Assembly: GCA_029063085.1 (NCBI GenBank)
Contig: JAIDOW010000070.1
Coordinates: 66,711-113,413 of the forward strand
DNA length: 46,703 nt
Reading direction: 5' to 3'
Source: Lachnospiraceae bacterium
GTDB lineage: Bacteria > Bacillota > Clostridia > Lachnospirales > Lachnospiraceae
The notes under the pieces were generated by a model. The model was not told the DNA's origin and did not search any database. It worked only from the letters and a program-made list of their open reading frames with translations. Made by a program: the position numbers and the translations under genes. This document shows, piece by piece, positions 3,901 to 16,179 of the stretch. How positions within the stretch are numbered: position 1 is the stretch's first letter; each line of letters begins with the position of its first letter.

Positions 3901-4090
3901 AAAGTAGAACAACCGATTATGCCGTTTCCTGCATTTTGAGTCCTAGCCAAGCTAGGTGGGCTACTTCACATAAGAATCTGCCATCCGGTCAATGCCGGCC
4001 CGACATCCGCTTATAAATATCAGTTCCCCATAAAAATAAATGTAGGTTCAAAATTACAAGAGTTGTCGTGCACACCAGAAGTTCTACTTT
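3901..4090 (-). ncRNA. ssrS: Candidate 6S RNA (190 nt)
   Basis: The ends are exact complements: AAAGTAGAAC at 4090-4081 (5' end, minus strand) and GTTCTACTTT at 3910-3901. They close a 190-nt transcript, the usual 6S length. Inside are imperfect paired arms, a GGGCCGGCATTGACCGG apical hairpin and a CCTAGC/GCTAGG helix, consistent with a long rod and central bubble. A minus-strand promoter lies just upstream and no ORF covers the region. 6S RNA binds housekeeping RNA polymerase and modulates transcription in stationary phase. The identification rests on length, closed ends, internal pairing and general resemblance to clostridial 6S. A covariance-model hit would settle it. Confidence 0.68.
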
Positions 4091-12968: not shown

Positions 12969-13091
12969 GTGTCATTCCCTGTTCATTCACTAATTATAAG
13001 GATATCGTCCTATCCAAATACCATTCCTTATGTAGAATACTTTGTTTTAAAGTATACCACATCTTACCTTTTATTAAAAGCATATACAAAA

Positions 13092-13863
13092 AAATTCCTG
13101 TTTAGTTTACTGGGGACGCTTCCAACATGAAGGGCTGGTGGGGTTCGCTGTGGAGATATCACAGGATTCACGTTCCGTCCCCGATTTAAGGTAGAGCCCC
13201 CTCTCTTTGTTCGGCGGCAAGTTTGTTGCCACCATTAAAAACCCTTCGGGTTGGGTGGCAACTCGCGCTCCGTCTCATGCGTAACGGTACATAAGCCATC
13301 AGCCTGCATTTTATGCAGACTGACAGCTAAGTACCGACGGATGAGACAGTCCTACACTTAGAATCCTATAATATCCCCACAGCTTAGACTTTTCAAAAGC
13401 TCATGTTGAAAGCTGTTTTTTGGTAGAATCAACACAAGAATTTATACGTCGCCAGCGGGGCAGAGGATATTTGTTCTAAGCGCAAGGCAATCTCTTATCA
13501 AATATTGCTTTTCTTAGCGAATGTTAATAAATAATATTTAAAGTCCAATAGCTAACCGGTCACATAGTACCAGCCAGTGCCGCCCGCAAGGCAGAAATTC
13601 TTGTATATTGTATCAAGAAACAGCTTCCATACGACGGTATCGGTACACAGCAGGAAAAGGGGGCTTATGGTTGTCCTAAGAGAGACCCGTCTGAAAACGT
13701 CGGTACTTAGAGGGTAGCCTGCTTGCAGGATAGCCTCTTATGTACCGCTACGTTGAAGTCAGAGTGCAAACGAGTCTCTCATGGAAACCATAAGCCCCCT
13801 TTTCCTGCGTCCGCCACCATCACTGTATGGAAGCGTCCCTCTTAGTAAGCTAAACCGGAATTT
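13092..13863. repeat. Large non-coding foldback element / candidate structured RNA
   Basis: About 770 bp without a credible ORF that folds back on itself. The termini are imperfect inverted repeats: left AAATTCCTGTTTAGTTTACT plus GGGACGCTTCCA (to 13124), right from 13828, with the same blocks inverted. Nested pairs: 13147-13169 with 13361-13383; 13225-13233 with 13254-13262; 13272-13278 with 13341-13347; 13408-13422 with 13614-13628; 13434-13443 with 13595-13604; 13650-13672 with 13786-13808. Two hairpins, 13285-13336 and 13701-13747, share CGGTAC arms but differ in their apical stems. It is either a MITE-like element or a large ornate RNA. It sits between the flippase gene and the aconitase terminator. 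I cannot match it to a named family and see no clear promoter. Confidence 0.7.
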
Positions 13864-13885
13864 AAAAGGGAGCCGGAAGGCTCCC
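13864..13885 (-). terminator. Intrinsic terminator of the aconitase-family gene
   Basis: On the minus strand GGGAGCC (13885-13879), a TTCC loop, GGCTCCC (13874-13868) and T4 (13867-13864). It lies 11 bp past the stop codon. The stem would also function on the opposite strand, but the tail there is poor. Confidence 0.85.
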
Positions 13886-13896
13886 TTAGTATATTT

Positions 13897-16179
13897 CTAT
13901 CTGCGGTTATAATTAATAAGACATCCTTTTAAGATAATCTCTCTTTCATCATCTGTTAAATCCCCCAAATGGAAGGTTAACTCTTTCATATCTTTATTTA
14001 CCACATATGCTTTGATATCATCATTCTTTTCCTTAACAGCCCTGGCGATATCCGGAATAAAGATATAATCATCAATCTCAAATGCATAATCCTCTGGCAT
14101 CAGAAACGGAAGCATTCCCCAGTTAATCAGATTCGAACGATATCTCTTGGTCGCATACTCCTTTGCTATATTAGCCCATCCACCAAGCACTTTCTGACAG
14201 GAAGCCGCCTGCTCTCTGGCAGAACCATCCCCCGGCTTAACTGCAAAAATAGTGGAACCAATACCGGTATTATTATGATTTACCTCCGAAAACTTCCCTT
14301 TAATTGTTTCCATAACCGGTTTCATTTCCGGTGCGAAATCACATATGCACTGATCTTCTTCTCTTGCCTTTTCAATCACCTGAACTGCCTTTGCTCTTCC
14401 AACATACTCCGGATCTTTGCGTGATAATGTAAACTCAGCCAGCCCCAAAGGATTGGAACGATATGAAGAAGTTTCTCCTGAAGGAATCAATTCATCCGTA
14501 GTTGTAACCGGATCATTAATAACGGATGCAACCTTTAAAATCAAATTATCGGTTAATGCTACCATAGCTGGCCAGTCTTTAATATTAGGACCAAATTTAA
14601 TCTCTACTGTTGGATCTGCTTTTCCAACACCATTGTAAATACGATTCTCATATATTGTCTGGTCAAAGAAATATTTGGGGTTACCAAAATTCACATCTAC
14701 ATCTGTAGCAGCAGTCAGATATCCTTTATTTGCTGCGGTTGCTGCAATAGAACGGGCATCCATTAACGCCACGGAAGAAATCTGTCCGTTCTGAACCTTA
14801 GAACCTTCACGGTTCGGGAAATTTCTGGTTGAATGACGGATTGAAAATGCATTATTAGCAGGTGTATCACCAGCACCAAAACAAGGACCACAAAATGCAG
14901 TCTTTACAATCGCACCTGTTGCAATCAGATCCGCTAATCTGCCGTTCTTAGCCAATTCCATATAAATCGGCGTAGAAGCAGGATACACACTAAGGGTAAA
15001 CTCATCTGCGCCAATACTTGCACCTTTTAAAATATCAGCGGCCGCACAGATATTTTCAAAACCACCACCGGCACATCCTGCAATAATACCCTGATCAACA
15101 TATAATCTGCCATTACGCACTTTATCTTTTAATGTGAAATCTACCTTTCCATCTAAACTTACAAGTGCACGCTTCTCACAATCCTCTAAAATATCCATGA
15201 GATTTGCATTCAGTTCTTCAATCGTGTACGTATTGCTTGGATGGAATGGCATAGCTATCATAGGTTTTACCTTGCTTAAATCCACATAAACCATCCCGTC
15301 ATAATAAGCAACTGCACCCGGATTCAGTTCCTTATAGCTGTCACTTCTGCCATGAATATCATAGAATTCCTTTATCTTACTGTCAGTCTTCCAGATAGAA
15401 GATAAACAGGTTGTCTCTGTCGTCATGACATCAATTCCGATTCTATAATCCGCACTTAAATGATCTACTCCGGGACCTACAAATTCCATTACCTTATTCT
15501 TTACATAACCATTTGCAAACACCGCCCCGATAATAGCAAGTGCAACGTCCTGAGGACCAACTCCTGCTTCCGGTTTACCATCCAGATAAATGCCTACTAC
15601 TCCCGGCATCTTTACATCATAGGTCTGACACAAGAGCTGTTTTACAAGTTCTCCGCCGCCTTCTCCAATGGCCATGGTACCAAGTGCTCCGTAACGGGTA
15701 TGAGAATCCGAACCTAATATCATAGCTCCACATTCTGCCAGCATCTCTCTTGCATACTGATGGATAACTGCCTGATGTGGAGGAACATAAACCCCACCAT
15801 ATTTTTTAGCACAGGTCAGTCCAAACATATGGTCATCTTCATTAATTGTTCCGCCCACTGCACATAAGGAATTGTGACAGTTAGTCAGAACATAAGGAAT
15901 TGGAAATTCCTCAAGACCTGATGCTCTGGCTGTCTGGATAATACCAACAAAAGTAATATCGTGAGAAGTTAATTTATCAAATTTGATCTGAAGCTTGTCC
16001 ATATTATCAGATGTATTATGGGCTTTCAGAATATCATATGCAATCGTATTTTTTGCTGCGTCTTCCTTAGAAACCACACTTCCTGTTTTACTCTTTAAAA
16101 TCTCTTCCTGATTGGCACCCTCTTCAATGATATCTGTACCATTTACAAGATAAGCACCACCTTCATATAACTTAATCAC
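13897..16179 (-). CDS. Aconitase-family hydratase (YbhJ-like)
   Basis: A 760-residue protein with the aconitase catalytic domain and swivel domain. Fe-S and active-site stretches are visible: [46 protein letters not shown] and [16 protein letters not shown], which supplies two cluster cysteines. RNFPNREGS near 470 is the usual substrate loop. The whole protein resembles the putative hydratases of the E. coli YbhJ type more than standard AcnA or LeuC. Whether citrate is the substrate cannot be told from sequence. The start is GTG, supported by AAGGAGG eight bases upstream. It is monocistronic, with its own promoter and terminator. Confidence 0.85.

Follow-up and report, generated by a model that had tools for sequence, protein, structure and literature searches.

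A MITE-like foldback element of Lachnospiraceae with a conserved, structured core of about 100 nt

Palindromic foldback repeats dispersed through bacterial genomes are known as REP/BIME, ERIC, RUP and Correia elements, to which the element treated here can be likened by description alone. The usual view of bacterial MITEs is that of transposon ends plus filler. Transposases carrying the PF01609 domain are presumably those of the IS4 family, in which a target duplication of 10–13 bp is usual. The nearest published idea is the class of mobile or repeat sequence candidates (MRSC), among which MRSC-65-2 is described as one long stem that contains a UYCCGG repeat and occurs in diverse phyla (PMC11109978).

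From a Lachnospiraceae genome (G000) we analyzed the window, a stretch of 46,703 nt in which a first-pass annotation had noticed a foldback with at least six nested complementary blocks. This was borne out by an inverted-repeat search, which returned at least six nested pairs, namely 13092–13111/13844–13863 (90% pairing), 13113–13124/13828–13839 (100%), 13147–13169/13361–13383 (87%), 13407–13434/13602–13629 (79%), 13434–13458/13580–13604 (76%) and 13650–13683/13775–13808 (88%). The RNA fold calculated for 13060–13900 had −348.2 kcal/mol, compared to −227.9 kcal/mol (sd 7.8, n = 20) for shuffled sequences (z −15.3). The two halves had been described as inverted, each with a CGGTAC hairpin, and these hairpins indeed pair with each other (13315–13339 with 13698–13722, 80%). 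In line with the statement that no ORF explains the interval, none of at least 80 amino acids was found inside it, and a 102-amino-acid ORF on the plus strand reaches only its first 14 bases. The flanking genes, both on the minus strand, encode a MurJ/polysaccharide-flippase-like protein and an aconitase (PF00330), and the hairpin adjoining the latter's stop codon (Table 1) would be the terminator of this minus-strand gene. In a scan for promoters and terminators the window copy remained at chance level (one terminator found, the hairpin just named, with 0.9 expected). Elsewhere in the window, Rfam matches on the minus strand correspond to a T-box leader (182–451) and 6S RNA (3906–4084).

Table 1 Features of the foldback element and its border in the window
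Feature	Position	Strand	Details
Whole composite foldback element	13092..13863	.	772 bp; alignment of 9 complete copies
Left terminal inverted repeat	13092..13124	+	inverted-repeat search, copy alignment
Right terminal inverted repeat	13828..13863	-	inverted-repeat search, copy alignment
Left unit	13092..13443	-	bounded by AAATTC(C/T)TG and ACAAGAATTT; core on minus strand
Left core	13176..13354	-	P2 13273-13345 (approximate); GNRA mini-hairpin split by GA-cis insert
GA-cis-containing 78-bp insert	13184..13261	-	missing from 8 other complete copies; Rfam match 13186-13266
Spacer between units	13444..13594	.	151 bp
Right unit	13595..13863	+	bounded by AAATTCTTGT and right terminal repeat
Right core	13680..13782	+	P1 outer helix, P2 CGGTAC stem, P3 GNRA mini-hairpin GTGCAAAC (13764-13771)
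Terminator-like hairpin	13866..13887	.	found on + only; adjoins aconitase stop; abuts foldback

A BLAST search of the window genome with the foldback returned 86 matches, including many fragments and matches of a copy to itself in reverse; they comprised 27 left ends, 21 right ends and nine copies with both ends. Because of the 27 left ends we count at least 27 copies, the incomplete ones mostly running into contig ends. Many contigs of this draft assembly end inside element copies (e.g., L060–L081); the element therefore seems to fragment the assembly. Eight complete copies measure 687–696 bp and the window copy is longer because of its insert. In the alignment, homology ends sharply at AAATTC..GAATTT, near AAATTCTTGTTT..AAACAAGAATTT. 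Of seven further complete copies that could be resolved, three (C14, C80b, C80c) have a gene whose stop codon extends into the end of the element or abuts it.

The element is built from two units that lie in inverted orientation on either side of a spacer; AAATTCTTGT or a sequence close to it delimits each unit, and their cores are oppositely oriented. Across the complete copies there are two versions of the left arms and two of the right, and all four combinations occur. The differing-yet-paired arms are therefore mostly swapped hairpins, not the product of many separate compensatory changes. The first-pass annotation had taken paired change at differing sequence as a sign of selection on structure; the pairing itself holds, but within this genome the change involves whole hairpin blocks, and the argument is sound for the core across species (GNRA rule and covariation, see below), not for the arms. 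Outside the window genome, two further species of the genus, G009 and G012, had this subtype's ends or spacer, including a spacer-like GC-rich piece in G012.

Within the two groups of copies defined by the right arms (six and three copies), the right core (13691–13757) has a divergence of 0.000, whereas the outer repeats, spacer and right arms have mean pairwise divergences of 0.046–0.129 and 0.061–0.100, respectively. Over all nine copies the value for the right core is 0.030. The left side of the element is more divergent, with mixed versions, and the left core is not specially conserved in this genome (0.064 in its group of five). The conservation of the right core could be explained by selection on the copies or by gene conversion.

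The insert in the left unit matches GA-cis RNA (RF02987) on the minus strand with 49.8 bits (gathering score 34.7), and the left core (L001, minus strand) accordingly falls among the cores lacking an intact mini-hairpin. A named Rfam match, put forward in advance as a refuting result, was thus found for these 78 bp alone. The sole further GA-cis match in the window genome (C99) scored below the gathering score and occupies the corresponding position of a truncated copy. Among 60 relatives six had GA-cis matches (L083–L112); G010 had 15 and G020 had 14, part of them arranged in tandem. Many of the copies inspected begin at an AGGAGGA and stop right ahead of a second AGGAGGA with a start codon, so that GA-cis looks like a small insert duplicating ribosome-binding sites rather than a fixed sRNA.

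Each unit of the element encloses a core of ~100 nt, which contains the CGGTAC stem with a 2-nt bulge and the mini-hairpin with a GNRA loop. The stem P2 follows the scheme CG(T/C)(C/T)GGTAC..GTACC(G/A)-(2-nt bulge)-(A/G)CG, capped by an apical hairpin that varies, and its frequent TGAG/CGAA flanks allow tandem G-A pairs. In 123 distinct cores, aligned by fitting to the structure of the model and hence leaning towards it, 97.8% of the cells were paired compared to 91.4% after shuffling, and 10 of 13 pairs had changes on both sides compared to 4.9; slid versions were lower on every measure. The loop of the 2-bp mini-hairpin P3 was of the GNRA type in 152 of 170 cores, compared to 5 of 170 shuffled ones; these cores were chosen on P2 alone, with some loci fetched by a P2 pattern and some with a model (R1) that includes P3, making the test partially independent. 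The loops were GAAA (67), GAGA (32), GCAA (25), GGGA (10), GGAA (9), GCGA (8) and GTGA (1), and a single GNYA loop was seen among the 18 non-GNRA cores. This rule of a purine at the third position favors RNA. For the outer helix P1, 20 distinct perfect 6-bp versions occurred in 78 of 155 cores, a set pre-selected for a GNRA-like string. Five elements of G009 (L350–L354) have an extra hairpin of ~57 nt (about CACTTAGCGAGG..CCGAGCTTAGTG) inside the P2 stem, and similar strings flank copies in G303.

Wobble counts gave a mixed picture. In P1 we found 27 GT and no AC mismatches (116 of 157 cores with five or six of six pairs), or eight genomes against none, and in P2 four genomes with GT against eight with AC (19 and 12 cells), some loci counting as their own genome in both tallies. 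The outer stems had 215 GT, 258 AC and 744 other mismatches in cores pre-selected for a GNRA-like string. For P3, where the first GNRA-like string was taken and pairing was not demanded, 2 GT and 14 AC were counted, a figure on which we do not rely. Given these mixed results, the core may possibly act as single-stranded DNA.

For the distribution of the core we used R1, built from 14 cores, among them the right core of the window copy (97.6 bits). Matches were obtained in 47 of 115 relatives, the window genome counted, including all 26 searched genomes of the genus. A positive genome contains anything between a single copy and over 30, and many positive genomes had at least 34 matches. In an order-wide and a phylum-wide sample, which overlap and were filtered so strictly that weak matches may be missed, the core was present in 30 of 295 and 4 of 299 genomes, respectively, every positive belonging to the Lachnospiraceae; many members of the family had no match. 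A scan of named genomes with a P2 pattern yielded at least 115 stretches under the names Lachnospiraceae, Clostridia, Eubacteriaceae, Eubacterium, Coprococcus, Agathobacter, Lachnoclostridium and, once, “bacterium”. According to the BLAST matches, relatives harbor smaller elements of ~200 bp with a single core and other ends. Altogether the elements that carry the core have no fewer than three kinds of ends, and outside the genus these ~100 nt are all that they have in common.

The core has no family in Rfam 15 in the searches made: over the window (E ≤ 1) only three microRNA families matched, below their cut-offs and over the left hairpin, 20 other loci (E ≤ 0.05) gave no match over the core, and part of L119 (E ≤ 1) gave one microRNA family over the core, far below its cut-off. 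Sub-threshold matches to Clostridiales-1 RNA (RF01699) were seen in two loci with core elements (L119:1218–1334 and L130:70–168), and a related string occurs twice in L023, which suggests another dispersed foldback. No report of such elements in Lachnospiraceae was among the best matches listed in a literature search outside of which most subscription papers lie, and word searches in PMC2864571, PMC11109978, PMC8632094, PMC2267715 and PMC10969869 led nowhere. Spread on phages or plasmids was not supported, with 0 matches of one exact pattern in viral contigs and of one 88-base query in plasmids and phages.

Several observations connect these elements to transposition. Direct repeats of at least 11 bp flank 23 of 164 cores compared to 1 of 164 mispaired controls; in at least four of the 23 the repeats do not abut recognizable ends. 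Two kinds of ends are associated with target duplications of ~9–12 bp. In the genus and in G355, single-core elements terminate in sequences resembling TAGGYRATTGCGAAACTC. The TAGGTAATTGCGAAACTC ends have 63–143 matches per genome in four genomes (up to two mismatches), compared to 0–1 for a reversed-pattern control. In G009, TAGGYRATTGCGAAACTC-like ends occur 75 times (up to two mismatches), and 24 end pairs were read off this list, 20 of which were fetched. The core was present in 18 of these 20 elements and a duplication of at least 10 bp in 11. The other two are shorter derivatives that lack the core stem and keep the ends, one with an 11-bp duplication, so that movement may do without the core. 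In G355, 4 of 12 copies had a duplication of ~10 bp recognized by eye, and six copies in G303 showed, by eye, neither kind of end. The core elements of G115 have CAATGTCATTAAGTTAAG ends and 9–11-bp duplications.

Ends of the last type also lie on both sides of 6 of 28 PF01609 transposase loci (four in G115, two in G020), none of these 28 loci containing the core. Candidate autonomous partners with matching ends were found for one end type, in the PF01609 loci of G115 and G020 and in one of G065. The G065 transposon (L370:1123–2684) has CAATGTCATTAAGTTAA ends and an 11-bp duplication, ggaacggagcg, which reads like part of the core, as if it had inserted into a core copy. In searches limited to PF01609, no such gene was found in the window genome, in G009, G025 and G013 or, among 13 further core-bearing genomes, in eight, including G355 and G303, and no autonomous partner with the window-type ends (AAATTCTTGTTTA) was detected.

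The first-pass annotation had considered a MITE with two structured ends. Dispersed copies and terminal repeats agree with this, as do the duplications in related elements, which are missing in the window subtype. The many dispersed copies without coding capacity and the terminal inverted repeats are features of MITEs, and we use the term MITE-like because a target-site duplication was found at none of the nine complete composite copies. We consider it fairly probable that the window interval is a copy of a non-autonomous mobile foldback element of this kind, whose core is a cis-acting module for its own spread. Transposases reading the terminal repeats would move the DNA in trans, which is supported for one end type by the ends shared with PF01609 transposons. 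We infer that the mover would be of the IS4 type where the repeats match and some other enzyme for the window subtype, and that the folded core would act in cis, either in the form of RNA or through extrusion as single-stranded DNA, so that the copies keeping it would be those that multiply. Going further, the core might be an undescribed folded-RNA module and its own unit of selection, helping any carrier element to spread through an RNA step of DNA transposons, a proposal we put forward tentatively.

A role for neighboring genes is probably not involved. For 109 of the 164 cores of the set pre-selected for a GNRA-like string, those with enough flank and neighbors, the core had the same orientation as the adjacent genes in 31 cases and the opposite one in 44, while 17 lay between convergent and 14 between divergent genes and 3 inside ORFs. 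Because of this mixed orientation, without a clear preference, and of the intergenic placement, a cis-regulator of the neighbors is held unlikely.

It is conceivable, if somewhat doubtful, that we are dealing with an ordinary MITE family in which the core is an inherited passenger, appearing conserved only because the copies are young and related, and the ends have drifted or been exchanged. Terminal repeats, target duplications and the ends common with PF01609 transposons would suffice for movement, the core-less derivatives of G009 exist, and the wobble in the outer stems shows no strand preference. Against a mere passenger, different genera retain the core but not the ends and outer stems, the core loops obey the GNRA rule, most of the pairs tested changed on both sides, and the right core is identical within copy groups despite a divergence of ~5–13% in their outer repeats, spacer and right arms.

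We regard it as rather unlikely that the core is a structured RNA gene, trans-acting or useful to the host, that hitch-hikes in MITEs with different ends. The loop purine rule, the P1 mismatches (GT and never AC) and the occurrence in all searched genomes of the genus would fit such a gene; the widely varying copy number, the many family members without a match, a window copy without promoter or terminator above chance and the opposite tendency of the P2 wobble do not. The single ornate RNA of ~700 nt proposed earlier (GOLLD, ROOL or OLE kind) can, despite the very strong fold, be rejected as highly improbable, since there is no GOLLD, ROOL or OLE match in Rfam, copies are numerous and of mixed orientation, only the ~100-nt cores are shared beyond the genus, and, with the two cores oppositely oriented, any one transcript would have just one of them in sense.

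The MITE-like element with its structured core bears on several questions. A core with GNRA loops and covarying helices in many Lachnospiraceae permits a direct test of whether some DNA elements carry functional RNA, and the element may explain assembly breaks in genomes of this family. It also calls for caution with GA-cis, typed as an sRNA in Rfam, whose behavior in some relatives is that of a dispersed insert.

Compared to GA-cis RNA (RF02987), likewise dispersed in several relatives, the resemblance is confined to the 78 bp of the insert in one arm, which is not the element itself. With IS4-type MITEs the elements share terminal inverted repeats, the lack of an ORF and a mostly intergenic location, and in related elements also duplications of ~9–12 bp and, in G115, ends matching those of resident PF01609 transposons. 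They differ in the composite nature of the window subtype, without target duplication, and in a conserved, structured core common to elements with different ends; what would be filler is here the conserved part. The MRSC class resembles them in being an abundant structured repeat of mixed orientation, with covariation and suspected selfishness (PMC11109978). MRSC-65-2 is set apart by its single stem and its spread over phyla (PMC11109978), whereas the core reported here has three helices and a GNRA loop and belongs to one family.
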